Positions 6,974 to 21,689 of a stretch of 21,689 bases of DNA are shown piece by piece. The translations under genes and the position numbers were made by a program. This DNA comes from a virus. Each line of letters begins with the position of its first letter. The stretch's first letter is position 1. The DNA lies in the IMG/VR virus record IMGVR_UViG_3300050821_003662, positions 1-21,689 of that record; one strand, given 5' to 3'. The notes beneath the pieces were generated by a model. That model made no database searches and had not been told where the DNA came from. It saw only the letters and a list, made by a program, of their open reading frames with translations.

Positions 6974-7258
6974 TTAACCACCCGGTACCCAATCGTCATC
7001 ACTGAAGTCTAAGACGTTCCAACGTGCTTTTTTAAGCATTCGCATGCGATTGGAAACACCGGCCATGCATCCGCACGATTTGGTGAGTCCTCGATTTAAC
7101 GACGTGCCGGCCGGCGTGCACGTGTTTCCGCACTCACAAGTACAAAGCCAGTGAGTAACGCCGTTTTTGTCGGCATGACTCTCACGGATTACCGTCAAAC
7201 GGCCAAACCGGCGTCCGTTCAATTGGAGTTTGTTTGCCGGGGCTGAGTGATTGGCCAT
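6974..7258 (-). CDS. Phage zinc-ribbon protein (GRRFGRLTVI type), 94 aa
   Basis: After a short tail the protein reads GRRFGRLTVIRESHADKNG, then a cysteine cluster (WLCTCECGN, C39, C41, C43, C47) and SLNRGLTKSCGCM (C62, C64). This arrangement is common in small phage proteins found near HNH enzymes or fused to AP2-like DNA-binding domains; a nucleic-acid-binding zinc ribbon is the likely role. The C-terminus is basic, then acidic. The start overlaps the upstream gene of the same operon by 77 bases, more than usual, but the family pattern begins too near the N-terminus for a much later start. It is the last gene of the leftward operon. Confidence 0.7.
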   Translation of the reverse strand: MANHSAPANKLQLNGRRFGRLTVIRESHADKNGVTHWLCTCECGNTCTPAGTSLNRGLTKSCGCMAGVSNRMRMLKKARWNVLDFSDDDWVPGG

Positions 7259-8246: not shown

Positions 8247-8981
8247 ATGGTCCAAATTGTTAACCAGACGGTACTCGGTGGGGGTTACAGACATTTTTCT
8301 GGCTTGTTGCCTCAATTTCCGGGTGATGGCGCTGCGCAAGCGCAAGCTTCTGTGCGGCCGTTTCACGTACCGGCGACCAACGCAGCAGCGATATTTCGCG
8401 GTGATATCGTAGTTTGGGCCTCCGCTTCAATCGGCGTGCCGGGGGCTGGCGATCTACCAGCCAACATCGGAGCGCCGGGGCCGGCCGGTGGCGTTATCGG
8501 CAACGGCGGCGGTTCGCTACTGGGCAACGCCGCGATGGCTGCAAACATCTCCCGTTGGGTGCCGGGCGATACTACAAGTGTCATCGCCGGCATTGTGGTC
8601 GGATTCGGCCCGATCACCCTGTTTATGGCGAAAAACGGCTTCCAATTCATTCCGGCCTCGACTGAGGCGTGGGTTTTCGTTGAGACGGATCCGCAAGTCG
8701 TCATGTCGGCAACTACGCCGAGCGTTCCTCTGGTACTTGCGTCAAATTTGGGTGCTGGCATCGACGTAAAAGCGAATGCTGCTTTTCAGGCAACGCGATT
8801 TGGTATTTCTGGGTTGTCACTTGACCCGGCCACAATCGCGTTGACTGCTACGCTCCCGCTCCGGATCATCAATTCGTCCGAGCAGATCGGTAACGATCCT
8901 ACGAACAACGGTGGTGTTGCCCAGGTTATGTTCAACCAATCTCGTCACTATCGCGGCGGCGCCGGCTTCATCGCCGACTAG
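8247..8981 (+). CDS. Probable virion structural protein, 244 aa
   Basis: The ATG follows CGGAG and is the first start after the rightward promoter. The product is rich in Gly, Ala and beta-prone residues, with no signal peptide: a Gly/Pro loop (IGVPGAGDLPANIG), several hydrophobic strands, then a C-terminal part reading LPLRIINSSEQIGND and VAQVMFNQSRHYRGG. This last pattern (R-[IV]-[IV] strand, then a polymer-like N/Q/H strand and Gly-rich end) resembles decoration or minor structural proteins of podophages. I cannot name a family with certainty. Confidence 0.55.
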   Translation: MVQIVNQTVLGGGYRHFSGLLPQFPGDGAAQAQASVRPFHVPATNAAAIFRGDIVVWASASIGVPGAGDLPANIGAPGPAGGVIGNGGGSLLGNAAMAANISRWVPGDTTSVIAGIVVGFGPITLFMAKNGFQFIPASTEAWVFVETDPQVVMSATTPSVPLVLASNLGAGIDVKANAAFQATRFGISGLSLDPATIALTATLPLRIINSSEQIGNDPTNNGGVAQVMFNQSRHYRGGAGFIAD

Positions 8982-9011: not shown

Positions 9012-9611
9012 ATGAAAATGTTTCGTTTTCTTGCTGCTTTTGCGCTGCTCGCGTTGTCAACGAGTGCGCATGCACAGACGGCCAACAAGCAACCCGTGTT
9101 TGCTCAAAACCAGCAATGGGCAGACTTGGGCAACGGTCCGCTCGACGTGCAGTCGGTCGAGGGTGCCGGTTTTATTTACTCGTCTGGCGGCGCTGGTGTT
9201 GGCACTTCGGCAGGTACAACTGCACTTACCTTGACTGCGACGCCTCCGGCTGGCACCGCACCGTGCATCGGCTGCGTGATTACGTGCTCGCTGAGTAACA
9301 CTGCGGCGTGTACCATCCCTGCCAACACAACCGTCACTGCGTTTAACGGCACTACTGGCGTCACTACGTCGGTTGCGACGACTGTCACCGCTGCCTCGCT
9401 CGTATGGGGCGCGGCGTGCCCAGCAGCAACCGCTGCGAACGTGCCGGGCGTCAACCCAAATACTGTAGCGTCGCTGGGGCCGCCTCTTACTCTTCGGTCG
9501 GGAGCTGGCGTACCTGTCACCTATCCGTTCTCCACAGCGGCGCGTCTCTGCGCGTACGCGGGGCAGCAAGCTGGTTTTGAGTTTCTTACGTTCCCGATTG
9601 GTGCCCACTAA
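9012..9611 (+). CDS. Exported Cys-containing protein of tail region, 199 aa
   Basis: I start at ATG 9012, preceded by AGAGG; an in-frame GTG at 8982 would add ten residues before the signal peptide. The N-terminus MKMFRFLAAFALLALSTSAH is a textbook Sec signal peptide, with cleavage likely after SAHA (then QTANKQ). The mature part is Thr/Ala/Gly-rich and beta-prone, with cysteines in PCIGCVITCSLSNTAAC, GAACPA and ARLCAY, consistent with disulphides in the periplasm. It ends FLTFPIGAH. No enzyme motif is seen. A fibre, adhesin or envelope role is possible. Confidence 0.65.
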   Translation: MKMFRFLAAFALLALSTSAHAQTANKQPVFAQNQQWADLGNGPLDVQSVEGAGFIYSSGGAGVGTSAGTTALTLTATPPAGTAPCIGCVITCSLSNTAACTIPANTTVTAFNGTTGVTTSVATTVTAASLVWGAACPAATAANVPGVNPNTVASLGPPLTLRSGAGVPVTYPFSTAARLCAYAGQQAGFEFLTFPIGAH

Positions 9612-9902
9612 ATGGCGCTCGTTACCGTACCGCGAAGTTTTTTCTACGGTGCTGCCCTTGCGGCCGGCAACTCAGATTTTAATCTAGACGCCGGTATCTA
9701 TGCGCTTGAGTTTGTGTTTACGGCGGGCACTATACAGCTGTTTAAGTTTCTGCCCGACGCGGTGACATTGATACCGGTGACTGCGGCACTTGGGGCAACT
9801 ACGTACACAACAATTCAGTTGCCGGCCGGACAGTATCGTCTCGTTGTGGTGACAGGGCCGGCGACCGTCGTAATCGAAAAGATCGACAGGGCAAGGTCAT
9901 GA
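9612..9902 (+). CDS. Unknown 96-aa beta-rich protein
   Basis: The ATG follows the preceding TAA directly. The product has no signal peptide. It is hydrophobic and beta-prone (IYALEFVFTAGTIQLFKF, QLPAGQYRLVVVTGPATVVI), like a small beta-sandwich of a fibre or baseplate subunit, and ends with a charged tail (EKIDRARS). Its stop overlaps the next ATG. No homologue is recognised. Confidence 0.6.
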   Translation: MALVTVPRSFFYGAALAAGNSDFNLDAGIYALEFVFTAGTIQLFKFLPDAVTLIPVTAALGATTYTTIQLPAGQYRLVVVTGPATVVIEKIDRARS

Positions 9903-10069
9903 AGGTGAAGCATACTGGTCCGTGCGGAGCGCAACCTAAAGTAACGGTGCACAAGCGCTACCCCGAAAAGTTGATGCGTGCTAAGATAGAGCGCCGCTCT
10001 CCGCTCAATGACAAGCGTCGGCTGTCTGAAGGAAAACCCTTTAAAACCAGCATTCCGGTAGGACCTTAA
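9899..10069 (+). CDS. Small basic protein, 56 aa
   Basis: ATGA overlap with the preceding gene sets the start, with AGG a few bases upstream. The product (MKVKHTGPCGAQPKV, then a run of basic residues in YPEKLMRAKIERRSP and NDKRRL) is very basic and probably unstructured. It lies between two structural-type genes and could be a nucleic-acid or virion-binding peptide. Function unknown. Confidence 0.55.
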   Translation: MKVKHTGPCGAQPKVTVHKRYPEKLMRAKIERRSPLNDKRRLSEGKPFKTSIPVGP

Positions 10070-10072
10070 GCC

Positions 10073-10945
10073 ATGAAAAAGCTTGCTGTCGCCATTGCTA
10101 CCTATCTGTTCGCGGCGACGGCGGCTTTTGCGCAGTATTCGGGCACTGGCAGCGATCGCAACATCGTTTGCAATCTTCTGCTTGTGAACGACACGTGCGT
10201 TGTCAACACTCAGGGATCTTCAACGGTTGGATGGTACACGACAGGCGGCCCAGCTACCTGGAGCGTCATCACTGAGTTGCTGTATGATGTTCCGGGGAGC
10301 GCGACCCAAACGTGGTTTCCAGCGCAGACATTTGACAGCAATGTCGCCAAGAATATCTTGGTCCCAAATTCGGCGTTGGCGACGACTCCAGGACAGTTTT
10401 CACAGGGTCTCAACAACGATCCGTGGATTACTAACGTCGGAGGCGCGCAAGCGTACCGGCTGCGACTTACAGCAACGGCCGGTGGTACGCCAATAACGGT
10501 TGTTTTGAATGCCTCTGTTGCGGTCAATGCGACGGCTGCATTTCAGACCAATCCGAACAATTTGCAGGTTACAGCCTCGCCGGTTGGATCTGCAGTCGGT
10601 CAAGTCACGGGCTCTGCTACTGGCACCACAGCCGGAGCGACAGCCACGCTGGTGGCTTCCGCGACGACTGGGCAATTTGGGTACCTTTGTGGCTATCGCG
10701 TCTCCCCAGGCAGTGCGACGGCGGCAGCTACTATCGCGATCACGACAACTGGGCTGACGAATAATTTGACGGATACGGTTGGTGCCCCCGTGACCGCTGC
10801 AGGTACGACGGGCGCCATCGTATCGGCGACATTTACTCCGTGTTTGAAGGCTGCAACGGCTAACACGAACATTACTGTTGCAGCTGGCGCTCTTGGTGCG
10901 GGTGGCGTAAATCAGGCAGTAAATGCTTGGGGCTACACGCAATGA
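10073..10945 (+). CDS. Exported beta-rich protein of tail region, 290 aa
   Basis: ATG 10073 has AGGA nine bases upstream. The N-terminus MKKLAVAIATYLFAATAAFA is a clear Sec signal peptide; cleavage is expected before QYSGTG. The mature protein has four cysteines (IVCNLLL, DTCVV, YLCGY, TPCLK) in an even, pairable arrangement and long Ala/Thr/Gly/Val stretches (TGSATGTTAGATATLVASAT) typical of fibre-like beta structures. The middle part (AYRLRLTATAGGTPITVVL) is a beta-sandwich pattern. No catalytic motif is visible. A surface or fibre role is likely; a tail role would need assembly after or without export. Confidence 0.65.
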   Translation: MKKLAVAIATYLFAATAAFAQYSGTGSDRNIVCNLLLVNDTCVVNTQGSSTVGWYTTGGPATWSVITELLYDVPGSATQTWFPAQTFDSNVAKNILVPNSALATTPGQFSQGLNNDPWITNVGGAQAYRLRLTATAGGTPITVVLNASVAVNATAAFQTNPNNLQVTASPVGSAVGQVTGSATGTTAGATATLVASATTGQFGYLCGYRVSPGSATAAATIAITTTGLTNNLTDTVGAPVTAAGTTGAIVSATFTPCLKAATANTNITVAAGALGAGGVNQAVNAWGYTQ

Positions 10946-11095
10946 TGGTTTTTATCGACCATGGTGTGCAGAACGGTAATCGGCGAGGTGCGTCACGCTC
11001 TTAACAGCCGACTTGATGAGTTGGTCGAATCTGCGGAAGGATGCGCTCATTACAGGCAGGAACCAAGAACGAGAGCGTGCAGAAAAGGCGCGAGA
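10942..11095 (+). other. Short gap with two tiny uncertain open frames
   Basis: A 20-codon frame (ATG at 10942, ATGA overlap, stop at 11002-11004) and a 27-codon frame (ATG 11016, product starting MSWSNLRKDALITGRNQERE, its TGA overlapping the next GTG) lie here. The second has a charged, helical look and couples neatly to the next gene, but its ribosome-binding site is poor. I see nothing else in the gap. Confidence 0.3.
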
Positions 11096-11398
11096 GTGAA
11101 CGTCGTTTTTGTCAACACGATCAATCTGGGTCACATTATTTCGGCGGTCGGATTCTTGGTCGGCGGCGTGAGTGTTTTCTTCGCACTTAAAAGCAGGTTG
11201 ATGGTCATTGAGGTGCTAAGTGCAGGTCAAGCAAAGGTAATCGACGCGATTCAAGACGAAATTAAGGAAATGCGTAAAGTTGTGCAAGAGCAGGCGCGAT
11301 TTGATGTTAAGTTAGCGACGCTTGAGCGCGATCTTTACGACCTAAAAACAGGTCGGGGCTTTATATTCGATCGGCCATTTGTTCCGTCTAAAGACTAA
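11096..11398 (+). CDS. Single-helix membrane protein with coiled coil, 100 aa (i-spanin-like?)
   Basis: I choose GTG 11096, with GAAAAGG upstream; the in-frame ATG at 10961 would add a poorly structured N-terminus that overlaps other tiny frames. Residues about 7-27 (LGHIISAVGFLVGGVSVFFA) form a membrane span. The rest is a charged coiled coil (VIDAIQDEIKEMRKVVQEQA, TLERDLYDLKTG). Such N-terminal anchor plus coiled coil is the plan of Rz-type inner-membrane spanins, and also of other small phage membrane proteins. No partner o-spanin gene is recognised nearby, so the spanin call is weak. Confidence 0.6.
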   Translation: MNVVFVNTINLGHIISAVGFLVGGVSVFFALKSRLMVIEVLSAGQAKVIDAIQDEIKEMRKVVQEQARFDVKLATLERDLYDLKTGRGFIFDRPFVPSKD

Positions 11399-11414
11399 CC
11401 ATGGGAGCGACACT

Positions 11415-11843
11415 ATGCCGCAGTTGAACAGTATTCTCCAGGAAAAAGTTGACTTTCTCAGTGAGTTGGAAGCCGTAGCGCGAAAGCTGCAAAACCCCAA
11501 TTTCGCTGACATCGTGAAGTCGGCACGTGCGCGCATGGCGCAACTGTTGACGCATCCGGATCTCGAAAACGTGGCACAGTTGCACGGTGACGAGCATGCA
11601 CCCGGCAGCCACGCGAATCTAGACGCATTTCAGAACGAACTCGCTGCTTTGGTGCGGATCGGAGATGACCAGTCGCCGCGTGCTCAGGAACTTCGTGTTC
11701 TGATTGGTCAGTTGCAGACTGATCAGACGAAGAAGTCCGCGCCGTTCCCCACAGCACAGCCACAGCAGCCGGTTGCGCCGCCCGCAGTCGATCGTACAGT
11801 TCCGCGTAATCCGACTCCAAGCGGCGCCTCTTTCGGTCCGTAA
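11415..11843 (+). CDS. Unknown 142-aa helical protein with Pro-rich tail
   Basis: ATG 11415 follows GGGAGCG; an in-frame TTG upstream overlaps the previous gene and is less likely. The protein has charged amphipathic helices (VDFLSELEAVARKLQN, FADIVKSARARMAQLL, AFQNELAALVR) and a C-terminal Pro/Gln-rich tail (AQPQQPVAPPAVDRT). A coiled-coil or scaffold-like role is possible. No homologue is recognised. The next gene begins 33 bases later with its own ribosome-binding site. Confidence 0.6.
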   Translation: MPQLNSILQEKVDFLSELEAVARKLQNPNFADIVKSARARMAQLLTHPDLENVAQLHGDEHAPGSHANLDAFQNELAALVRIGDDQSPRAQELRVLIGQLQTDQTKKSAPFPTAQPQQPVAPPAVDRTVPRNPTPSGASFGP

Positions 11844-11875
11844 AAGTCGAGTATTCGACATAGGAAAGCTTTACC

Positions 11876-12208
11876 ATGCCTACGCGCTTTTGCGGTCATA
11901 AAACTGGCTTTAACCCAGCCGGTGATAACACGTGCGACCCGAACGAGCTGGGACCGCCGGAAACGAAGTTCGGTGGTCGTCCCGCCGTACCGGCCGGGCC
12001 GTTGAAGCATTTTCCAGGTGCCGTCGCAGATATCAGTTCGGGGAATCGCCGTCTCTCCAAGTCAAAGCATGGCGAAGGTACGGGCGGCGGTACCGTCTAT
12101 AAAGGCACGTCAGCCTTTGTGGATTCTCGGCCTCATATGGACACGGGGCGCAAGCCTGGAGGCATGGGCGGCCGCCGTAACCGCGGCATGAGCGACAACA
12201 GGAAGTAG
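11876..12208 (+). CDS. Unknown 110-aa Gly/basic-rich protein
   Basis: ATG 11876 has AGGAAAG upstream. The product begins MPTRFCGHKTGFNPAGDNTC, is rich in Gly, Lys, Arg and Pro, and seems largely disordered (KHGEGTGGGTVYKGT, RKPGGMGGRRNRGMSDN). No known domain is seen. Such disordered basic proteins occur among phage structural or nucleic-acid-binding proteins. The following gene starts five bases downstream. Confidence 0.6.
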   Translation: MPTRFCGHKTGFNPAGDNTCDPNELGPPETKFGGRPAVPAGPLKHFPGAVADISSGNRRLSKSKHGEGTGGGTVYKGTSAFVDSRPHMDTGRKPGGMGGRRNRGMSDNRK

Positions 12209-12213
12209 CCTGC

Positions 12214-12360
12214 GTGCCTCGGCGGTACGAAGCCATCAAGCGCGAGTTGCGCAAAGGGCACCCTGGAATGTCCGATGCGATGGTAAAGAAGCACGCCGCA
12301 ATGATTTTCAACGGTACGCGTAAGAAGGGTCAGAAGCCGGTTACGCGCGGGTCAAAGTAA
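12214..12360 (+). CDS. Small basic protein, 48 aa, GTG start
   Basis: GTG 12214 is preceded by AGGAAG at good spacing, partly inside the end of the previous gene. The product, PRRYEAIKRELRKGHPGMSD then VKKHAAMIFN and a lysine-rich tail, is strongly basic and helical. This style of short protein (a K/R-rich helix, then SDAMVKKHAA) occurs widely in phages, function unknown. Its TAA overlaps the next ATG. Confidence 0.6.
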   Translation: MPRRYEAIKRELRKGHPGMSDAMVKKHAAMIFNGTRKKGQKPVTRGSK

Positions 12361-12623
12361 TGGACGATTTCACTAAGCATCCGATCTCACTTGGCGAAGT
12401 CAGGGCAGAGCAGAGTGGTGAGTGTACTGACTGGTCTCCGCGTGATGTGTTAGTGAAGATGTTACGCATGATCGATAGCGGTGAAGTTTCGCCCGACGTT
12501 CTTGTAGTTGCTTACAGTCGAATGGTTGAAGGCAAACGTATGGGACATTTTTGGCAGTCAACGCCGTGCGGAATGTTATCGCTTGGTTTGATGCAATCAA
12601 CCATCTTCAAAATGCAGGATTGA
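12360..12623 (+). CDS. Unknown 87-aa phage protein
   Basis: Starts at the ATG overlapping the preceding TAA (TAATG). The product has a recognisable phage-type pattern: TDWSPRDVLVKMLRMIDSGE, then SPDVLVVAYSRM and a Gly/hydrophobic end with LSLGLMQSTIFKMQ. Similar small proteins (acid-rich start, WSPRDAL, alternating strand-helix) are frequent in proteobacterial phages and carry no assigned function. No catalytic motif is seen. Confidence 0.6.
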   Translation: MDDFTKHPISLGEVRAEQSGECTDWSPRDVLVKMLRMIDSGEVSPDVLVVAYSRMVEGKRMGHFWQSTPCGMLSLGLMQSTIFKMQD

Positions 12624-12704
12624 CGTGACATTTTACGTGTATGAGCATGTTGATCCTTGCACGTTCGCCACGTTTCCGCGCTTGTGAAGTCTGGAGTTTG
12701 CGGG

Positions 12705-12794
12705 ATGACTGGACGGAAGCACTCCTCGGAAACTCGCGTCAGCATGGTCGTGGCACAGAGGAAACGCAGGAACGGAGTGCCGCATGTTCTATAG
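12705..12794 (+). CDS. 29-aa peptide with NUMOD3-like motif
   Basis: ATG 12705 has GGAG eight bases upstream. The peptide contains GRKHSSETRVSMVVAQRKRR, which fits the NUMOD3 DNA-binding motif pattern (G-KHSEET...KMS.A...R) known from GIY-YIG and HNH homing endonucleases. Alone it is far shorter than any such enzyme, so it is either a remnant of a homing endonuclease or a stand-alone DNA-binding peptide. An in-frame extension upstream starts at TTG 12657 but lacks a domain. It overlaps the next gene by 11 bases. Confidence 0.4.
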   Translation: MTGRKHSSETRVSMVVAQRKRRNGVPHVL

Positions 12795-13200
12795 GCCGGG
12801 AGGATCCATAAAAAGTATAAATCGTCAGTACGACCAGTGCTATGCTGATTTTGTCGGTGCGGCCACTGGTTGGCTCCCAACTCACAAAGGCGACACGATC
12901 GGAGTTAATATTTGTCGAGCCAGTATCGTGTTTGGTAACGCGGCGTCTTCTCTCGTGACTAACACACCGATCGCTCCGGAAGCTACTGTCTTAATGGAGT
13001 TGAAAATGTTCGGTGTTGATTTGAACAGCGCCGCTTTCCCTGCGGATCAGTGGCAAAATATGGTCGTCGCTACGTCACGCCGTGCACACCGGGCCGGTTG
13101 GGTGCGGCTGCGCATTCTCGCCATCAACAACGGAGACGGAACTGGCATCAACATGGCCTTGCAGATTTCCCGCACAGGCGACGTTGGTGCGCAGACCTAG
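12784..13200 (+). CDS. Unknown 138-aa protein
   Basis: ATG 12784 has GGAACGGAG upstream. The product begins MFYRPGGSIKSINRQYDQCY and continues as a beta-rich fold (TIGVNICRASIVFGNAAS, ATVLMELKMFGV, WVRLRILAINNGDG). No signal peptide. The start overlaps the 29-aa NUMOD3-like frame. It may be a small structural or baseplate-like protein; I recognise no family. Confidence 0.55.
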   Translation: MFYRPGGSIKSINRQYDQCYADFVGAATGWLPTHKGDTIGVNICRASIVFGNAASSLVTNTPIAPEATVLMELKMFGVDLNSAAFPADQWQNMVVATSRRAHRAGWVRLRILAINNGDGTGINMALQISRTGDVGAQT

Positions 13201-13203
13201 GCC

Positions 13204-13392
13204 ATGAACGAGAGTGAAATCAAGGCTCGGATGTTGGCTTTAGGAGACGCCTACGCAAAGGGTGACGAAGGACTGTCGGCCGAGATAGGGCTTTCGATTG
13301 TTACTCAGTTTTTGGTTGATACAAACCGAATTGCAACCGCGTTGGAACGCATGGCGTCGACAACTCCGAGTAAAATGCCATGGGGGGCATAG
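13204..13392 (+). CDS. Unknown 62-aa helical protein
   Basis: ATG 13204 is close behind the previous stop, without a strong ribosome-binding site. The product is two helices (ESEIKARMLALGDAYAKG and LSIVTQFLVDTNRIATALER) with acidic and hydrophobic heptads, suggesting a coiled-coil dimer. Its end overlaps the HNH gene start by 13 bases. Function unknown. Confidence 0.55.
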   Translation: MNESEIKARMLALGDAYAKGDEGLSAEIGLSIVTQFLVDTNRIATALERMASTTPSKMPWGA

Positions 13393-13895
13393 TACGTGAG
13401 AGAGTGACTTACCAAGGCGTGCCTTGCAAACGCGGCCATGACGGTTTGCGTTTTAAGGGTGGTCACTGCTGCAGTTGTCGTCGTGCGTATGAGCGAGTGC
13501 GGGACCGCACTCGATGGCAACGGAGACGTGTCGATCCGTTTCGTTTTCGAAAATGGAGTGCGTGGCGTCTTGCTAATATTGATCGCGAGCGTGCCAGAGG
13601 ACGAGCGGGCGCTGCCATCCGTAAAGCTCGTTCGTTAGCTTCTGGGGGTGTATACACCTACCATGATATTATTTCGCTTTTTGCCATGCAGGAAGGTCGC
13701 TGCGCTGCTTTTTGGTGTCGTGCCGAACTGAAAAACAGTTATCATGTAGATCACATTACGGCGCTGGCGCGCGGAGGGTCTAACGATCCAAGCAATCTGC
13801 AGTTGCTTTGTCCGTCATGTAATACGTCAAAAGCGGACGACAGTATGTTTGATTTTTACCTTCGAGTAGTAGGGAGGCGAAAATTAGTGGGCTAG
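13380..13895 (+). CDS. HNH endonuclease with N-terminal zinc ribbon, 171 aa
   Basis: A DNA-cutting HNH nuclease. The N-terminus has a zinc-ribbon pattern (C16, H20, C30, C33 in PCKRGHDGLRF and GGHCCSC), then a long basic stretch. The nuclease domain shows C108 and C113, H122-V-D124-H125 (YHVDHI, the catalytic core), SNL with N139, and CPSC (C144, C147), all expected residues. I use ATG 13380, overlapping the previous stop; an in-frame GTG at 13404 is an alternative. It sits among tail genes, away from the terminase, so homing is more likely than a packaging role. Its end overlaps the first paralogue start. Confidence 0.85.
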   Translation: MGGIVRERVTYQGVPCKRGHDGLRFKGGHCCSCRRAYERVRDRTRWQRRRVDPFRFRKWSAWRLANIDRERARGRAGAAIRKARSLASGGVYTYHDIISLFAMQEGRCAAFWCRAELKNSYHVDHITALARGGSNDPSNLQLLCPSCNTSKADDSMFDFYLRVVGRRKLVG

Positions 13896-14524
13896 ACAAC
13901 GGCACTGGGCAGGGCGGCGTTTTCTTTCAGACCAAGCAATTCGGCTCGATCCTACGCGGATTCGGTCCGCCGGTACCACAAGCCGGACTTGTCGGCGATC
14001 TCTATCTGGATACCCTCACTTTCAACCTGTACGAGAAACGTGCTACCGACGCTGGTCAGGATGTAGACCCGTGGGGGCATTTTATGTTTGTCGTTCCAGT
14101 TACTTACCGGAATCAATTAAAGTGGTTTAGTACGTCGTTGCCGGATGACAGCATTGGCGTTACGGGCGATTATTGCTTGTCGTGGGCCGGCTTTGGCAAC
14201 TACGGGTTGCAACCGTCGATCTACGGACCAAAGAACGTCGCCGGGTCATGGCCCGAGAGCGGTAACGGACCAACCACAACGATCGCTGCAGTCGGTACCG
14301 GCTTCGTGTTTCCGCTCGGACTGGTTGATGAAGGCCCCCAGGCTGCGTACAGTCGGTCCACACAGCTGATTGTCGCCGGTCTCGTCGACGAGTTCGTGCT
14401 GTCGACGCCAGTAAGCAACATCGCCGGCACTATCATCGGGGAACTCGGCTTGCAAAGTGTTCCAACCCCGGTTACGGTTACGCTTAACGCGTTGTATACT
14501 GCGGAGGACTCACATGCTGTTTAA
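13883..14524 (+). CDS. Tail-region paralogue A (213 aa), probable AUU start
   Basis: The frame is open from 13853 to 14524, with no ATG, GTG, TTG or CTG in its first 70 or so codons. Homology to the paralogue at 14740 starts with EAKISG, and the sequence around the ATT at 13883 is AGGGAGG-CGAAA-ATT, a good Shine-Dalgarno. The protein reads ISGLDNGTGQGG, then QFGSILRGFGPPVPQAGLVG, DPWGHFMFVVP and GDYCLSWAGFGNYG, beta-rich and fibre-like. A 60- to 70-residue segment between SWPE and VTVTLN is absent in B. The end overlaps a small secreted-peptide gene by 11 bases. An ATG at 14084 would delete a third of the conserved part. Confidence 0.6.
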   Translation: MSGLDNGTGQGGVFFQTKQFGSILRGFGPPVPQAGLVGDLYLDTLTFNLYEKRATDAGQDVDPWGHFMFVVPVTYRNQLKWFSTSLPDDSIGVTGDYCLSWAGFGNYGLQPSIYGPKNVAGSWPESGNGPTTTIAAVGTGFVFPLGLVDEGPQAAYSRSTQLIVAGLVDEFVLSTPVSNIAGTIIGELGLQSVPTPVTVTLNALYTAEDSHAV

Positions 14525-14738
14525 AATTCTTTCTGCCATCGTTGCGGTGTTCGTGCTTGGCGGAACTGTAGCCAACGCCGGTTACTACGTCTACCGCTTT
14601 AATTGGAATCCGTGGCATCCTTACCATTACTGGCACGCACCGGCTCCGGGCTACAGCAATACGTATCGGCGGGGTTTTCGTCGCGAAGGTGGTTTCGGTC
14701 GCTGTTACAGTCCGTACAATTGCGGTTGGGGAGGCTAA
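14514..14738 (+). CDS. Secreted 74-aa aromatic/glycine-rich peptide
   Basis: ATG 14514 overlaps the stop of paralogue A; GGAG in its codons serves as ribosome-binding site. The N-terminus MLFKILSAIVAVFVLGGTVA is a Sec signal peptide, with cleavage likely at NA|G. The mature ~52 residues are rich in Tyr, Trp, His, Gly and Arg (YYVYRFNWNPWHPYHYWHAP and GFRREGGFGRCYSPYNCGWG) with two cysteines, a low-complexity pattern of secreted adhesive or envelope peptides. No family recognised. The stop is one base before the ATC start of paralogue B. Confidence 0.6.
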   Translation: MLFKILSAIVAVFVLGGTVANAGYYVYRFNWNPWHPYHYWHAPAPGYSNTYRRGFRREGGFGRCYSPYNCGWGG

Positions 14739-14739
14739 A

Positions 14740-15180
14740 ATCTCCGGATTCGACAACGGGACGCTGCAGTCCGGCATTTTCTCTCAAGCTAAGCAGTTTG
14801 GGTCGATTTTGCGCGGCTCCGGACCGCCCGTGCCGCAAGCGGGCCTTGTGGGCGATTTGTACATCGATACGGTGACGCTTAACTTGTTCACCAAAAGATC
14901 GACGGAAGCCGGTGGTGATGTGGATCCTTGGGGGCATTTTCTTTTTGTTGTTCCATCAGCGCAGCAAGCGCAGTTGAAATGGTTTGGGGCGTCCGCGCCG
15001 ACAAACGATATCGGAATTAATGGTGATTATTATTTGCTTTGGGGTGGTTTTGGTAACTACGGCCTAAACCCGATTTCAGTATTTGGTCCGAAGGCAGCGG
15101 GCGTATGGCCTGGAGCAGCGGCTCAAGTGGCTGTTACGCTCAATACGCTTTATACGGCGGAAGATAGTCATGCCATTTAA
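14740..15180 (+). CDS. Tail-region paralogue B (146 aa), probable AUC start
   Basis: The conserved part starts at ISGFDNGTL, from an ATC at 14740 preceded by GGGGAGG-CTAAA, the same leader as paralogue A. A GTG at 14689 is in frame but would add 17 residues that are only the shadow of the upstream peptide gene. Segments shared with A: KQFGSILRG, GPPVPQAGLVGDLYIDT, DVDPWGHFLFVVP, GDYYLLWGGFGNYG, VAVTLNTLYTAEDSHA. No signal peptide. The TAA overlaps the next gene start in the same way as in A, so the whole cassette seems duplicated. A fibre or baseplate-type protein is likely. Confidence 0.6.
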   Translation: MSGFDNGTLQSGIFSQAKQFGSILRGSGPPVPQAGLVGDLYIDTVTLNLFTKRSTEAGGDVDPWGHFLFVVPSAQQAQLKWFGASAPTNDIGINGDYYLLWGGFGNYGLNPISVFGPKAAGVWPGAAAQVAVTLNTLYTAEDSHAI

Positions 15181-15355
15181 GAAAAAACCTCCCGCCAAAT
15201 CGGCCACAAAGCGCGGTCCGATGACTGCGGAGGACCACCGCAAGTTGGCTGCAACGCACAGTGCTAAAAGTAGTTTGCAACATGCAAAAGCACAGTTACT
15301 AGAAGCCCAGGACCCAAAGCAGAAAAAGCGCGATACTTTGATCGGACGTTATTGA
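15170..15355 (+). CDS. Small basic protein, 61 aa
   Basis: ATG 15170 overlaps the stop of paralogue B exactly as the secreted-peptide ATG overlaps A; GGAAG lies upstream. The product is strongly basic and helical (MPFKKKPPAKSATKRGP, then AATHSAKSSLQHAKAQLLEA and KQKKRD). No signal peptide, so despite the shared position it is unrelated to the secreted peptide. Function unknown. The next ATG follows after one base. Confidence 0.6.
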   Translation: MPFKKKPPAKSATKRGPMTAEDHRKLAATHSAKSSLQHAKAQLLEAQDPKQKKRDTLIGRY

Positions 15356-15356
15356 A

Positions 15357-15977
15357 ATGAGTTACAGCCCGGCGACCGATTTTCTTGCGTTGCTCCGCCC
15401 TACGTCCGGAGGCGTGCGTACTGAGCAAATGCCGGGGTTAGATTTTGTTATTGCGGCTTTGCAGCGTGCGGGACTTTTGACTAACCTCGTAATCGGAGCA
15501 GTTGCGCCGACGTTCAATCAAGCAGCGACACCGTGGTTTCAGCCTGCATCGCCATCGTGGTCGGGAGAAGGCATTCTTTTCCTGTGGAACGCAGTGGCTG
15601 GGGCTTACCAGCCCGCTACGCCCGCCTTATGGGCTGCTTTTTTTCTTCCGACCATAACTGGATACGTATTTCAATCGGTAAATGCTGGTGCTGGAGTTGT
15701 ACTCGCAGGCACCAGTTTGCTCGCTATTCAGCGCGTGGCGCCGGCCGCCACAGCGCTCACGCTTCCGAATCTTGCGGCGCAATTTACTTCCGGCCATAAG
15801 CTCCAAATTTTGGACTTCTCGACGGCTGTCGTGAACCATACTATCACACTGACGACGCCGGACGGTGCCACTATCATGAGACAAGCAGCGTGGCAGTTGC
15901 TTTCGACGCCTGACCAGCTTGCTGGGGTTATGCTGCAGCCGTCTCCTGACCTCAACTCGTGGATTATCGCGCCATGA
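15357..15977 (+). CDS. Probable tail or fibre protein, 206 aa
   Basis: The ATG lies one base after the previous TGA. The product begins MSYSPATDFLALLRPTSGGV and is Gly/Ala/Thr-rich with many beta-prone segments, e.g. GYVFQSVNAGAGVVLAG, TALTLPNLAAQFTSGHKLQI and VNHTITLTTPDGATI. The LTLPNLAAQFTSGHKLQILD-type pattern resembles beta modules in phage fibres. No signal peptide, unlike its neighbours. Its stop overlaps the next ATG (ATGA). Confidence 0.6.
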   Translation: MSYSPATDFLALLRPTSGGVRTEQMPGLDFVIAALQRAGLLTNLVIGAVAPTFNQAATPWFQPASPSWSGEGILFLWNAVAGAYQPATPALWAAFFLPTITGYVFQSVNAGAGVVLAGTSLLAIQRVAPAATALTLPNLAAQFTSGHKLQILDFSTAVVNHTITLTTPDGATIMRQAAWQLLSTPDQLAGVMLQPSPDLNSWIIAP

Positions 15978-16855
15978 TGAAAAAACTTCGCATTTTTGCT
16001 TTCGTCGCTTCTATGGCAGCAACGGCTTTGGCTTTGGCTGGGATGCCCGTTGATGCCCAGTGGCAAACGCCGGACCACTCGGTACCGATCGGGAATGGTG
16101 CCGGCATTGTTGGTTTTAGTAACGCCGCGCCGGGCACTGCGGGGCAACCGCTCGTCAGCAACGGTCCTAGTGCGGATCCTTCGTTTCAGCTTTTGCTTGA
16201 TATCATCCCGATCGGGGCCGTGCTTGATTATACAGGTACGACGGCACCCAATGCGCATTTCCAGCTTGCATTTGGTCAGGCAATTTCGCGCGCAGCTTTT
16301 CCAGCGTACTTTGCACTGGTTGGTACGACTTACGGAGCCGGAGACGGATCAACGACGTTCAACGTACCGGATTTGCGCGGGCGCGCAGTCGCTGGCGTCG
16401 ACAACATGGGCGGCTCAACGGCAGGCCGTATTACGGTTGCGGGAGGGAATTTCAACGGTACGGTTTTGGGAGGTGTGGGAGGCTTGGAAAACCACGCACT
16501 GACTGGACCAGAGGGGCCGGTGCATAGCCACACTGCTACTGATAGCGGTCATACTCATAACGTCACAGCGGACGACAACACAAACGTCATTGGTGGCGTT
16601 AACGGCGGCAACGCTGGTACGTTTGCGCTTTTTAACACCACAACGCCGGCTCACACTATCACATCGACGGTAGGCACTGCAAACATCACTGTCTCCAACG
16701 CCGGCAGTGGCGCCCCACACACGATTTTGTCGCCGACGATAGTCCTCAACAAAATCGTCCGCGTTCAGTTTTGGGACGAGTATTTTGCAAGTCGGATGCT
16801 TGGTGTTGCAAACGACAACGACGAGATCTGGTACAAGGCAGCGGTGGGAGAATGA
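15974..16855 (+). CDS. Tail-collar-domain protein with signal peptide, 293 aa
   Basis: ATG 15974 overlaps the preceding TGA. Residues 1-27 ([18 protein letters not shown], ending PVDA) look like a Sec signal peptide. Next is a ~45-residue module ([16 protein letters not shown]) repeated in the next gene. Then comes a phage tail collar domain (about 79-150): [49 protein letters not shown]. The C-terminal part has HSH and HTH pairs, likely metal sites, and ends [18 protein letters not shown], a typical short-fibre end. Such proteins are tail fibres; a signal peptide on one is unexpected. Confidence 0.8.
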
Positions 16856-18249
16856 TCAAGAGGTTTCTTTTTGCTGCTGTTCTATTTGCTACGGTAGCGC
16901 CCGCGTGTGCGCAATGGCAAACACCGAATCACTCAGTACCGGTTGGGCGAGGGCTCGCCACTACTGGTTTTGGCACTGTAGGACCCGGTGCGTTAAATCT
17001 TCCGTTTATCGGACAAGGCGCGACTGCGGATCCAGTATTTGGAGCGTTGCCGCTCAACGGTGCCGGCGTTACCGGTAATTTGCCCGTAGGCAATCTCAAT
17101 AGCGGTACGGGTGCGTCCGCAACAACATTTTGGCGTGGTGACGGGACTTGGGCCGTACCGAATCCGTCGACTAATTTACAAGTTATAAACTATACAATTG
17201 CCAATACCGATTGTTTTAAGACTGTTCAAATGGGGAGCGGATCGACTGGATTTCTTACGGTAACTCTGCCGCCTGTAGCGGGTTTTACTCCTGGTTGCTG
17301 GGTGTACGTCAAGAACGGCGATACCTATCCAGGAGGACGCGGTAAGAAACTTTCTGGTTTTCCAGCTGATTTACAAACAATTTTATGGCCTAGTCAAACG
17401 TTGGCTGTCCAAATCATTAACGGCGCATGGGTGAGCGTCCAGAATCCGGGAAGGTGGAATTCAGGAGTCGCAGCTACGATTTGTGTTGATACGACCGGCG
17501 CTAACACTAATGACGGTCTTGCCGGAACCGGCAGTGGATGTGTTGCTGATACGCAAGCAGCGGTTAGCATCATTCAAAAGTCACTTGATATATCTCCGGG
17601 AACTCCTGTCATATCGGTTACTTGCGGGCAAACGCAAACTGTTCAACTTTCGATGGGAGGACAACCGACTGGCGGCAATCTTGTCCAATTAAGCCCCAAC
17701 GGAAATTGCTCGTTCAACTGGACTAATACCGGCCCTTGTATTTCAGTAGGTGATAATGCTGAGTTGGATATGCGGCTTAATGCAGGTGGTGGATCTGGTG
17801 CTATTAATTTTACTTGTGACTCGCTTAATCCTTCTAATTCTGGGCAGGTATTTATACATAATAACGGTATTGTCGACTTGGAAGGAACGCCTACGTTCAA
17901 TGGCGGAGGTACCAATGACGCTGCTTTCTTTTTCGATGGTATCGGCATATCCACAATAACAAACGGTATGAATACAACCGGTAATTTTCATACTATTCTT
18001 GATCTTGATGTCGGCAGTAAAGTTACAGCTTCCGGCGTTATTAACACGCCGAGCGGGACAATAGCCGCATGCGTAGTTGTGCAGGGGGGTAGTCGATTGA
18101 TTATGGGCGGTAATGCGTGTACTGGGGGCGCAACAATTTCCGGTACGTCGCCTATTACGGGCAACTCTTCAATTGTTACTAATGGAGTGACAATTACGGG
18201 TGGAACTGCAGCATCCACGGGTGGTCAGGTCTGTGTGTCAAAATGCTGA
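16852..18249 (+). CDS. Tailspike-like beta-helix protein with signal peptide, 465 aa
   Basis: ATG 16852 overlaps the previous stop (ATGA). Residues 1-21 ([20 protein letters not shown]) form a Sec-type signal peptide. Residues from [14 protein letters not shown] repeat the N-terminal module of the preceding gene. Next is a fibre-like section ([20 protein letters not shown]). From about residue 200 the sequence runs [18 protein letters not shown] and a series of short beta strands ([28 protein letters not shown]), as in right-handed parallel beta-helix spikes. Many cysteines occur, the last at VCVSKC. No catalytic residue can be placed, so it may be binding-only. Confidence 0.7.
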
Positions 18250-18266: not shown

Positions 18267-18806
18267 ATGGACAATTTTCCGAAAGCTTTAGATTTCGTTC
18301 TCCGTCCTGACATCGAAGGCGGCAACGACGACGATCCACAAGATCCCGGCGGACGTACCTCGCGCGGTATTGAACAGCGTGAGTGGGACGCCTACTGTAA
18401 GTTGCATGACTACCCCCAGTGCGATGTATGGCGGGCGCCGCAAGTATCGATCGGAGAGATTTATCGAAAATACTACTGGCAACCGTATTGCCAAGTGCTA
18501 CCGGCCGGCGTCGATCTTTCGTTTTTCGACGAGCATGTGAACACCGGTCTGCACGAGGCGGCCGTAATTCTTCAGCGCTGTTTGCATGTTACGGTTGACG
18601 GACATATCGGCGTGATTACGATGCGTGCACTGTCGGAGGAAGACCCGCGTAGTATCGTCAACGACTACGCGCTGGAGCGAGAGCGGGTTTACCGGGAAAT
18701 GAGAGGCTTCCCGAGATTCGGCAGAGGCTGGTTGAAAAGGGCGAAGTTGTGCCGAGATGTATCACTCGCACTGATTGTAGGCTTGACGCCGCCAACCGGA
18801 GCGTAA
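18267..18806 (+). CDS. GH108 muramidase endolysin, 179 aa
   Basis: This protein hydrolyses peptidoglycan and releases progeny. The N-terminal domain shows the family signature EGGNDDDPQDPGGRTSRGI (residues 17-35), with E17 as catalytic acid. The C-terminal part fits the peptidoglycan-binding region paired with GH108 domains (VDLSFFDEHVNTGLHEAAVI, then VDGHIGVITMRAL). No signal peptide or signal-anchor is present, so it should need the holin to reach the wall. Length is normal for the family. AGGAAC precedes the ATG; the holin gene follows with its own ribosome-binding site. Confidence 0.85.
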   Translation: MDNFPKALDFVLRPDIEGGNDDDPQDPGGRTSRGIEQREWDAYCKLHDYPQCDVWRAPQVSIGEIYRKYYWQPYCQVLPAGVDLSFFDEHVNTGLHEAAVILQRCLHVTVDGHIGVITMRALSEEDPRSIVNDYALERERVYREMRGFPRFGRGWLKRAKLCRDVSLALIVGLTPPTGA

Positions 18807-18835: not shown

Positions 18836-19264
18836 ATGGCTTTTGACATCGGTCCGTATTTTGCGGGTGCGCGATACGCGGTGACTACCGCAACGGCATT
18901 TGGAGCCGGAATCGGGCTTCATTCGATTTACGGAGTGTCGACAGACCAAGTTACGGCGGGATTTGACCACATCTTCAATGGCCTGAACGAAATTGCGGTT
19001 GGTGCTGGGATCCTCGCTCCGATTGTGGCGGGTGCTTGGGGCGTAGCAAGTTCGCGCTTTTCATCGAAGGTAGCTGACGTGCGCGCTGCGGCGCCTGCGG
19101 ACCTTGCCAGTGCTGTTGCGAAGGCCGCCCCTACGGTCATACTCGACGCGGCTGCGAACGTCCCAGGGACCACGCAGATACGCACTACGCCGGAACTGGC
19201 GAGGGCTACGGAGAGCCCGAAGGTGGTCGCGGCACCACTCACAGCCAACCCACGCGTTGCGTGA
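18836..19264 (+). CDS. Holin-like membrane protein (Pam3-gp28 type), 142 aa
   Basis: ATG 18836 is preceded by a strong GGAGG. Two hydrophobic segments (ARYAVTTATAFGAGIGLHS, residues about 12-30, and EIAVGAGILAPIVAGAWGVA, about 52-71) surround a short acidic loop (GVSTDQVTAGFDH), the pattern of Pam3-gp28-type holins. The C-terminal ~65 residues are a longer Ala/Thr/Pro-rich tail than in those proteins. It lies between endolysin and terminase, and its TGA overlaps the terminase GTG, a typical podophage order. It would form the membrane lesion that lets out the muramidase. Confidence 0.7.
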   Translation: MAFDIGPYFAGARYAVTTATAFGAGIGLHSIYGVSTDQVTAGFDHIFNGLNEIAVGAGILAPIVAGAWGVASSRFSSKVADVRAAAPADLASAVAKAAPTVILDAAANVPGTTQIRTTPELARATESPKVVAAPLTANPRVA

Positions 19265-20808
19265 GCGTTGCTTACCCGTGGAGCAGTGCAGCCCCGCCCG
19301 CGCGTAGTAAAGAAAGCGTTCGGGCGGGGCTACTTGATTTTGACAAGTATCGCGAAACGTTTTTGCGCGTTCGTCCCCGGCAAGGTGGTGACCGCATACC
19401 ATTTATTTTGAACAGCGCACAACGCGTGCTGCACGCCGGAATCGAAAACGAACGTAAGACTTTTGGGATGGTGCGCGCACTCATTCCGAAAGCACGGCGT
19501 ATGGGCGTCAGTACGTACGTTGGCGGCCGTTATTTTCATCGCACAGCTACGGAGTTCGGCCGGCGCGCGCAGATTGTGGCACACCGATCAGATAGCGCAA
19601 CCAATCTTCACAAAGAGGTAAAGGAGTTTTACGCGGGTTTGCCTCTGAGTGCACAGCCGCACTTAGGCGCTTCGAATGCACGTGAGTTGATATTTGATAG
19701 GTTGAAATCGCTTTACAAAGTCGGTTCGGCAGAGGGCGGCGACATCGGTCGGTCGGATGACTTTCATTTGCTGCATCTGTCGGAAGCAGCATTTTTTGAT
19801 AATACCGAAGATTTGTCATCCGGCCTTTTGCAGACTGTGCAAGATATTCCGGGTACCGAAATTGCCATGGAGAGCACCGGCAACGGTCAATCCGGCATGT
19901 TTTATAGTATGTGCCAAGAGGCGCACGTTAATCAGAATAAAGGCCCGTGGCGATTGCATTTTTTGCCTTGGGGCGTGATGCCTGAGTACCGAACGCAGGT
20001 ACCGCAAAACTGGACGGCACCGAAAGATTTCATAGATTACGCCAAGTTTCATGGGTTTGATCGTGAACAACTATACTGGTTTTGGCTGCGGAACTATACT
20101 ATCGCGACGATGAATGGAGGACAGCCCGAAACTATTCATCGACTTACAAGGCAAGAATATCCGGCCACGTATAACGAATGTTTTATGGCGGATTCGACGC
20201 TGGATTTCTTTCCGGCGTCTATCGTTAGTGCTGCGATGGTTCGGAAGCCGAATCCTTCGGCCGGTGCACTGAAATTGCTTTGTGTCGACCCGGCTGGTGA
20301 CGGTCAAGACAAACCTTTCGTATGTGACCGACAGGGATCCGCGATCGGTGCGCGGGTGTGGGGCGAGCTGGCCAACCGTGATTTTAATGTTCAAGCGGAT
20401 TGGCTTGTGCAGACTTATGAGCGTTTCAGTATGGATGCGATCGTAATTGACGTGACGGGCGTAGGGAAGGGACTAGTTGACGCGGTGCGACTTCGTATGC
20501 GCAAGTACGGTCAAGAAAAAGTCGTTCCCGTAAACTTTGCTTGGGGTGCACTGAATGACGTACTGTACGGTAATCGACGTGCAGAGTTACACGACAAGTT
20601 CCAGCGTTGGTTGCAGGGCGGCGTATCGATGCCAAATGACAAGTTACTGTCGGAAGAGGTTGCGGCGTACAAGTGGGGGCAAGGCGGTTGCCGGCGCGAT
20701 GATAAAATGCGCTTGTTCATGACGCCGAAACTCAAAATTCATAAGGACATCGGACGGTCTCCAGACCGGTTGGACGCTTGTGCGGTGGCTATGGCAGTGG
20801 AGGGTTGA
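19261..20808 (+). CDS. Terminase large subunit, 515 aa
   Basis: The packaging motor and nuclease. GTG 19261 overlaps the holin TGA (GTGA). The ATPase domain shows a deviant Walker A, PKARRMGVSTY (76-86), and Walker B-like LLHLSEAAF (170-178, E175), both usual in this group. The RNase-H-like nuclease domain has D343 in LCVDPAGDG, D397 in VIDVTG and D505 (or D502) in SPDRLDA. Length is normal. No small terminase is next to it; the 102-aa protein at 6637 is only a distant candidate. Confidence 0.92.
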   Translation: MSVAYPWSSAAPPARSKESVRAGLLDFDKYRETFLRVRPRQGGDRIPFILNSAQRVLHAGIENERKTFGMVRALIPKARRMGVSTYVGGRYFHRTATEFGRRAQIVAHRSDSATNLHKEVKEFYAGLPLSAQPHLGASNARELIFDRLKSLYKVGSAEGGDIGRSDDFHLLHLSEAAFFDNTEDLSSGLLQTVQDIPGTEIAMESTGNGQSGMFYSMCQEAHVNQNKGPWRLHFLPWGVMPEYRTQVPQNWTAPKDFIDYAKFHGFDREQLYWFWLRNYTIATMNGGQPETIHRLTRQEYPATYNECFMADSTLDFFPASIVSAAMVRKPNPSAGALKLLCVDPAGDGQDKPFVCDRQGSAIGARVWGELANRDFNVQADWLVQTYERFSMDAIVIDVTGVGKGLVDAVRLRMRKYGQEKVVPVNFAWGALNDVLYGNRRAELHDKFQRWLQGGVSMPNDKLLSEEVAAYKWGQGGCRRDDKMRLFMTPKLKIHKDIGRSPDRLDACAVAMAVEG

Positions 20809-21067: not shown

Positions 21068-21689
21068 TCAGAACTGGTAGAACAGACCGAATTTTTGCGT
21101 TACCATGTGATACTTGGCGAGGCTGGTTGCCAGCACGTTTCCGGCGGAATCGGTCGCCGTCAGGGACTTGTCGCCAAGCTGGGACCAGTCGCCTTCAATG
21201 AACACGCCAAGGTTCTGAGTGACCTTATAGCGCAGACCCGCGCCGACGTTCCAGCCGGTCGACGTGTCGCTGGCAGCGGCCTGGATTGACCCGACGTTCA
21301 GGTTGGGGTGAGCGCCTCCAAAGGCGAAACCGCCGACGCCGTAAGCCAAGAGTCGACGATCGGCCGACACTGGGATGCCAAACATCACGTCAAAGTTGCC
21401 CAGATAGTTCGTAGCGTTCGATACCGAAAGGGAGTCCGCAATGCTCGTTCCGGATCCACTGACGTTGAGATAGCCGATATCGACACGAGTGCCAAACACG
21501 AAACTGCCAGTATCGAAGTTATAGCCGACAGAACCGCCGCCGCCGGGACCGCGCGGAGCGGAGGCCAAATCAACGATCGGGTTGGTAGTTGTGGTCGTGG
21601 TGACGCCTGTGACGTTGGCGCCATATTGAAAATATCCGTCCAGGTAAAGGCCCTGCCAGCTTGTCGCGGGTAGTGCCGTCTGAAATGGA
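21068..21689 (-). CDS. Outer-membrane beta-barrel protein, C-terminal part (partial)
   Basis: The frame is open from the right edge to the stop at 21070-21068, so the true start is outside the window. The visible ~206 residues read SWQGLYLDGYFQYGANVTGV, GPGGGGSVGYNFDTGSFVFG, RLLAYGVGGFAFGGAHPN, GWNVGAGLRYKVTQNLGVF and end QKFGLFYQF. This is the pattern of Omp25/31- or OmpA-like barrels, with an aromatic C-terminal residue for the Bam machinery. Such genes are abundant in Rhizobiales. It faces the rest of the module and may be a lysogenic-conversion gene (compare lambda Lom) or the host flank of a prophage. Confidence 0.75.
   Translation of the reverse strand, partial: PFQTALPATSWQGLYLDGYFQYGANVTGVTTTTTTNPIVDLASAPRGPGGGGSVGYNFDTGSFVFGTRVDIGYLNVSGSGTSIADSLSVSNATNYLGNFDVMFGIPVSADRRLLAYGVGGFAFGGAHPNLNVGSIQAAASDTSTGWNVGAGLRYKVTQNLGVFIEGDWSQLGDKSLTATDSAGNVLATSLAKYHMVTQKFGLFYQF

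Follow-up and report, generated by a model that had tools for sequence, protein, structure and literature searches.

The general assumption is that the fibres of tailed phages both fold and join the particle in the cytoplasm, and we know of no tailed virus that exports its host-recognition fibres. Virion proteins made with signal peptides occur in filamentous phages (pVIII and pIII), whose adsorption protein contains periplasmic disulphides, and lambda Lom, Bor and the superinfection-exclusion proteins are examples of phage-encoded envelope proteins. The spikes of phage P22 can be added in vitro to spikeless particles. In the P22 virion the tailspikes are attached externally to the gp4/gp10 tail, and they cleave the receptor, a polysaccharide (PMC3741392). 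Tailed phages are known to use the general secretory (Sec) pathway of the host for Sec-exported endolysins, signal-arrest-release (SAR) endolysins, spanins and the lysis control protein RI of T4 (PMC6116005). No report of Sec-exported tail-fibre proteins in a tailed-phage lineage was found in the literature searched, coverage of which was incomplete. Here we analyzed a fragment of an uncultured soil phage, the entire IMG/VR record IMGVR_UViG_3300050821_003662 (positions 1 to 21,689, hereafter the window), in which five genes, named by their start positions, encode proteins with predicted Sec signal peptides:

9012–9611, + strand: signal-peptide protein 1, 199 amino acids; signal peptide at about 9012–9074, cleavage between AHA and QTANKQP; lineage core family with DLGNGP motif and three cysteine pairs
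10073–10945, + strand: signal-peptide protein 2, 290 amino acids; signal peptide at about 10073–10132, cleavage between AFA and QYSGTGS; 4 mature cysteines
14514–14738, + strand: signal-peptide protein 3, 74 amino acids, rich in Gly, Tyr and Trp; signal peptide at about 14514–14579, cleavage between ANA and GYYVYRF; Shine-Dalgarno-like GGAGG upstream; least certain member
15974–16855, + strand: signal-peptide protein 4, 293 amino acids; signal peptide (15974–16057), QWQTP module and phage tail Collar domain
16852–18249, + strand: signal-peptide protein 5, 465 amino acids; signal peptide (16852–16911), QWQTP module, fibre stalk motif and C-terminal part

Signal peptides in the window and its relatives

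The window was scanned with the von Heijne prokaryotic matrix in combination with h-region and charge tests, a procedure distinct from SignalP. Among 26 open reading frames the scan returned exactly the five genes for which the initial annotation had claimed signal peptides. By sequence, they show the features of signal peptidase I substrates, namely a K/R-containing n-region, a hydrophobic h-region and small residues at positions -3 and -1. The scan recovered 12/12 textbook E. coli Sec signals. It made four calls in 42 E. coli genes, two of them false (nhaA and caiB) and two resembling genuine signal peptides (yaaX and yaaI), and the calls in P22 (1/64) and T7 (3/52) were all membrane-protein-like. 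Because shuffled window N-termini were called at a rate of only 2.4%, five signal peptides in 22 called genes are improbable by chance (p=1.5e-4). Processing as lipoproteins by signal peptidase II was rejected, as no lipobox with a cysteine at +1 is present; the VAPAC sequence of 16852 lacks a canonical lipobox and its cysteine is missing from most homologues.

Relatives were gathered from IMG/VR contigs by means of the terminase and of the N-terminal module shared by 15974 and 16852. Many of these contigs are 50–54 kb long, several have end overlaps of 90–127 bases as in circular assemblies, and in 18 of 23 records the terminase is 64–88% identical to that of the window. Genes of 17 longer lineage records were called with a home-made caller; the start choice is uncertain for some of them. 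One record (L003) represents the same phage as the window and reaches about 1.7 kb further right. In this podovirus-like lineage of roughly 52 kb, strong signal-peptide calls were obtained for 100 of 879 proteins with a length of 100 amino acids or more. Eight control phages gave 2 such calls among 313 proteins (p=5e-12); these were T7, P22, Roseobacter phage CRP-901, Alcaligenes phage QDWS535, Caulobacter phage GB2A, Bradyrhizobium phage ppBjS10J-1 and two groundwater phages. Between 3 and 10 such proteins were called per long record. Lysins and internal proteins aside, a signal peptide is carried by most of the late proteins of the 52-kb records that are long and variable, some scan misses or start-choice losses in this survey having been judged by eye.

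The signal peptides are also retained within single families. The 9012 family belongs to the lineage core, and its members have a signal peptide in 18/18 records. In essentially all true homologues of 15974 and 16852 a signal peptide precedes the motif QWQTPxHSVPIGRG, L028 falling slightly under the cut-off. The AXA-type ends claimed previously recur in this family, with an AXA-type site before Gln in 30/30 distinct homologues (A or V at -3, A or S at -1 and Q at +1 throughout). Acidic residues occupy only 1 of 584 positions in their signal regions, and mean identity is 33% in the signal region versus 71% in the first 18 mature residues. Because the signal region diverges while the mature start is conserved, the N-terminus of the QWQTP proteins is best read as a cleaved signal peptide and not as a virion anchor. 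For 10073, a single distant homologue was found (L004, 14542–15387, 40% identity over 124 amino acids), which likewise has a signal peptide. The gene 14514 occurs only in the window and in L003; confined to this phage, its signal peptide lacks comparative support, and it is the weakest of the five cases.

Cysteine content and nature of the exported proteins

Proteins that mature in the periplasm tend to have their cysteines in pairs. When families with three or more cysteines were compared, an even count was found in 43/50 with and 44/99 without a signal peptide (p=5e-7), although shared homologous modules make the families partly dependent and some starts are uncertain. For single proteins the corresponding numbers were 77/85 and 131/279. 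Several cysteines had been noted earlier in 9012, 10073 and 16852, and their mature parts indeed contain 6, 4 and 12, respectively, after cleavage before QWQTP in the last case; 14514 contains two and 15974 none. Cysteines 26 and 43 of the QWQTP module (mature numbering) are both present in 6 homologues and both absent from 24, single ones occurring in none. Likewise, the cysteines of the 9012 family are gained or lost pairwise in 18/18 records (PCxGC; TC...CTI; ACP...RxC), with a further pair in one of them (G005). The even counts and the joint gain and loss of pairs indicate that the exported proteins reach an oxidising compartment. From these patterns we strongly infer export via Sec, cleavage before Gln and disulphide formation.

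Similarity to fibre or spike domains was found for two of the five proteins. The 15974 protein matches the phage tail Collar domain (PF07484, 1e-15) and a tail protein family (phrog_8763, 3e-36). The 16852 protein contains a stalk motif common to fibre-like proteins without signal peptides in other phages, such as Bradyrhizobium phage ppBjS10J-1, and its C-terminal part is rich in cysteines and strands. Pfam and PHROGs gave no usable match for 9012, 10073, 14514, 8247 and 15357, and 9012, 10073 and 15357 had no match in any cultured phage. The AlphaFold models for 9012 and 16852 consist mostly of strands, in agreement with the beta-rich mature parts proposed initially, at a confidence too poor for further use (predicted local distance difference test, pLDDT, 53 and 46), and Foldseek returned nothing below E 0.6 against the PDB. 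Beta-helix and tailspike matches of 16852 were weak and were set aside as evidence.

Throughout the lineage the exported fibre proteins combine a conserved N-terminal module with a variable C-terminus. Among the signal-peptide proteins of relatives are a fibre resembling pectate lyases (PF12708), fibre modules of collagen-like and glycine-rich type and BNR repeats. A GDSL esterase (PF13472), likewise with a signal peptide, lies directly right of the window in L003. The outer-membrane barrel announced at the right edge of the window is complete in L003 (6741–7451), where both the domain (OMP_b-brl, PF13505, 8e-11) and a signal peptide with cleavage between AAGA and ADLSDRYPTK were found. A barrel with a signal peptide is located near the terminase in most lineage records. 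It shares up to about 35% identity with barrels of Hyphomicrobiales, and its relatives point to no single host genus. Two glycosidases of relatives, an alpha-L-fucosidase (PF01120, glycoside hydrolase family GH29, 1e-25; L061, 8823–9809, + strand) and a GH26 enzyme (4e-5; L080, 14503–15630, + strand), have N-termini resembling signals of twin-arginine translocation (Tat), SRREVCRG and SRRALIGG, respectively. Export may therefore not proceed by Sec alone, and a few exported proteins perhaps use Tat.

Proposed assembly at lysis and alternative explanations

We give about an even chance to the proposal that the variable receptor-binding and glycan-active proteins are Sec-exported, oxidised in the periplasm and meet the virions at lysis. 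According to this model, short-tailed soil phages would make fibre and spike modules whose N-terminal adaptors are conserved and preceded by a cleavable Sec signal peptide. Once these proteins are across the inner membrane, the signal peptide would be removed between AXA and Q, and folding and disulphide formation would take place in the periplasm, while DNA-filled heads and a P22-like tail hub would be assembled in the cytoplasm. Lysis by holin and endolysin would then unite the heads with the periplasmic fibres. Docking of mature fibres on virions after lysis is a step that we only infer; it would involve the hub and the mature N-terminus, which is conserved (QWQTPxHSVPIGRG... or xDLGNGPxxI...), and a partner of the 15357 family, encoded directly upstream, may mediate it. 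Two conserved proteins without signal peptides adjoin exported ones in the window:

15357–15977, + strand: conserved protein without signal peptide or cysteine, directly upstream of and overlapping an exported fibre gene
8247–8981, + strand: core protein of 244 amino acids without signal peptide, 0–1 cysteines, directly upstream of 9012; present in 17/17 long records

The start of 15974 forms an ATGA overlap with the stop of 15357, and the start of 16852 overlaps the stop of 15974. Homologues of 15357 occupy the same position in nearly all lineage records and usually contain no cysteine, and the protein is a candidate virion-side partner of the exported fibre. The 8247 protein is probably structural.

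Two further phage loci outside the lineage (L114 and L115), which were reached via the exported N-terminal module QGCGPANPNCIVPTAP..., also carry runs of signal-peptide proteins. In L115 the protein encoded at 3470–4927 has a signal peptide, followed from residue 29 (29–162) by a domain that matches positions 2–128, the extreme N-terminus, of the profiles of tail protein, tail spike and tail fibre families (phrog_1640, 6e-18). Thus the signal peptide is placed before the part that normally binds the virion. The wider claim, that virions are assembled in two compartments joined only at lysis and that two or more other phage lineages (L114 and L115) use the same trick, we hold more tentatively, at somewhat below an even chance. 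L115 also encodes two adjacent similar proteins (4933–5301 and 5298–5675, + strand; GGxLGFSLGT...), one without and one with a signal peptide; this pair is apparently a natural gain or loss of an export signal.

Several observations weigh against assembly at lysis. The 15974 protein contains no cysteine and its homologue in L004 contains one. Fibre-like parts are not all exported, as the gene at the position of the P22 needle has no signal peptide yet encodes the fibre-type ATTAFV motif, and the fibre-like proteins of the diverged genome G004 lack signal peptides. The free GH29 and GH26 enzymes with Tat-like signals suit secretion better than virion assembly. Furthermore, the lineage is uncultured and known from sequence alone. 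The needle-position protein without signal peptide in L063 (17869–18687, - strand) contains TAPTAPLGTNTDQIATTAFV, a motif common to the exported NCIVPTAP fibres. G004 (79.8 kb; L106–L109) combines lineage core genes with a second structural-like gene set and the fibres mentioned above, which suggests a larger phage or a chimeric assembly.

The strongest alternative, to which we assign roughly one chance in three, is that the exported proteins with fibre and hydrolase modules are not virion components and act in the periplasm, the outer membrane or the exopolysaccharide. They would mask or trim receptors, block superinfection or release progeny from glycan, and the barrel would be part of the set. 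The frequent position of the barrel near the terminase, the free glycosidases and the GDSL esterase favor this explanation, as does the varying number of different signal-peptide proteins per genome. However, L115 has its signal peptide joined to a virion-attachment domain, the Collar and fibre stalk modules are of a kind usual in virions, and the long late genes offer few other receptor-binding candidates, which argues against a non-virion role as the whole story. Virion-fibre and envelope roles may each be true of different members. The initial interpretation stands in so far as the signal peptides are real, the cysteine pattern points to an oxidising compartment and the genes lie among late virion and lysis genes. 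Among the options it offered, completion in the periplasm or after lysis is favored here, and coating of the host or masking of receptors is the leading rival, which may hold for some members, such as the stand-alone glycosidases of relatives; the single envelope-modification system that it suggested, barrel included, is putative.

A third option, reuse of the N-termini as anchors on the virion, is disfavored. Fibre N-termini usually bind the virion and hydrophobic segments can enter membranes, so that uncleaved virion or membrane anchors or trimerisation segments are conceivable. Yet conservation is lowest in the signal region, where only the signal-peptide grammar is kept (the -3/-1 rules and the near absence of acidic residues), conservation begins directly after the cleavage site at +1, the pairing of cysteines calls for an oxidising compartment, and the outer-membrane barrel and the GDSL esterase show the identical grammar. 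We therefore regard anchors as improbable. N-termini that are hydrophobic by chance, wrong starts or contamination from the host, for which the lack of 14514 homologues outside this phage and some uncertain starts in relatives could be cited, are most improbable and largely refuted by the conservation across 30 distinct homologues, the low call rates in controls and the circular or complete-looking records of about 52 kb that share the same genes.

The soil phage lineage in relation to known systems

The lineage core comprises a capsid protein (PF25209), an SU10-like portal, a P22 gp10-type hub protein (phrog_578, 4e-34), the terminase, a GroES-like protein and the families of the window genes 8247, 9012, 11876, 12784, 14084 and 15357. 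No tape measure was seen in the lineage records, which contain the gp10-type hub, SU10-like portal and capsid protein and are known from genes alone. The GroES-like co-chaperonin (phrog_3188, 4e-4; L059, 2483–2935, - strand) adjoins the portal gene and is kept across the lineage. The following further genes were located in the window:

2198–6634, + strand: core protein of 1478 amino acids, probable internal or injection protein; no usable family match
18267–18806, + strand: endolysin without signal peptide, GH108 and peptidoglycan-binding domains (PF05838, 3e-16; phrog_315)
18836–19264, + strand: probable holin or other small membrane protein, 142 amino acids, adjoining the endolysin; no family match
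19261–20808, + strand: terminase large subunit (phrog_2, 5e-22), used to define the lineage
21068–21688, - strand: outer-membrane beta-barrel, 5' end outside the window (PF13505, 8e-11, for the full copy in L003)

In addition, the window contains tandem paralogues (14084–14524 and 14689–15180) that both end in LYTAEDSHA and belong to a core family with about two copies per genome; an HNH gene (13380–13895) and the lone 14514 gene are located around them. An open reading frame of 94 amino acids antisense to the late genes (6974–7258, - strand) has a CxCxCG...CGC pattern and probably encodes a zinc-finger or homing-endonuclease-related protein.

The QWQTP module had no relative in 84,980 bacterial and archaeal species genomes at the sensitivity of that search; thus the lineage is probably virulent. 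Among 397 genomes from the order of Bradyrhizobium, QWQTP proteins matched only partially, in the stalk region, in two. The QGCGPANPNCIVPTAP module, preceded by a signal peptide, was also found in two of 243 genomes of the genus Bradyrhizobium, one of them that of Bradyrhizobium sp. 132. This suggests Bradyrhizobium or a related bacterium as host but does not prove it for the phage of the window. In one genome (G066, contig 6; L122/L123) integrase-, primase- and terminase-small-subunit-like genes adjoin a fibre gene with a signal peptide and other virion genes are absent; this looks like a satellite-type or decayed element.

If the proposed route is true, it would be a new mode of assembly in which host-recognition parts are gained only on release; otherwise, the annotated tail fibres would be secreted effectors on the host surface. 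Either outcome alters the reading of fibre and carbohydrate-enzyme genes in soil viromes, and signal peptides together with cysteine parity provide a simple sequence test applicable to any virome.

Like lambda with Lom and Bor, the lineage encodes signal-peptide proteins, including a barrel, in a tailed-phage late region. Lom and Bor, however, are small accessory genes, of which temperate phages have one or two, whereas the lineage has 3–10 exported proteins per genome, one of them core, and was not found integrated in sequenced genomes. Filamentous phages extrude their virions through the membrane, in contrast to the lineage with its tailed-phage capsid protein, portal, terminase and lysis genes. 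Sec-exported endolysins, spanins and T4 RI share with it the use of host Sec during infection by a tailed phage, but these proteins act in lysis, whereas in the lineage the endolysin has no signal peptide and fibre and glycan modules are exported. In P22, the spikes lack signal peptides and fold in the cytoplasm, unlike what is proposed here, and the sole P22 signal-peptide call is a membrane protein. Nevertheless, the P22-type tail (gp4, gp10, gp26 needle and gp9 tailspike) has its likeness in the phrog_578 hub, the short needle-position protein and the enzymatic spike-like proteins of the lineage.

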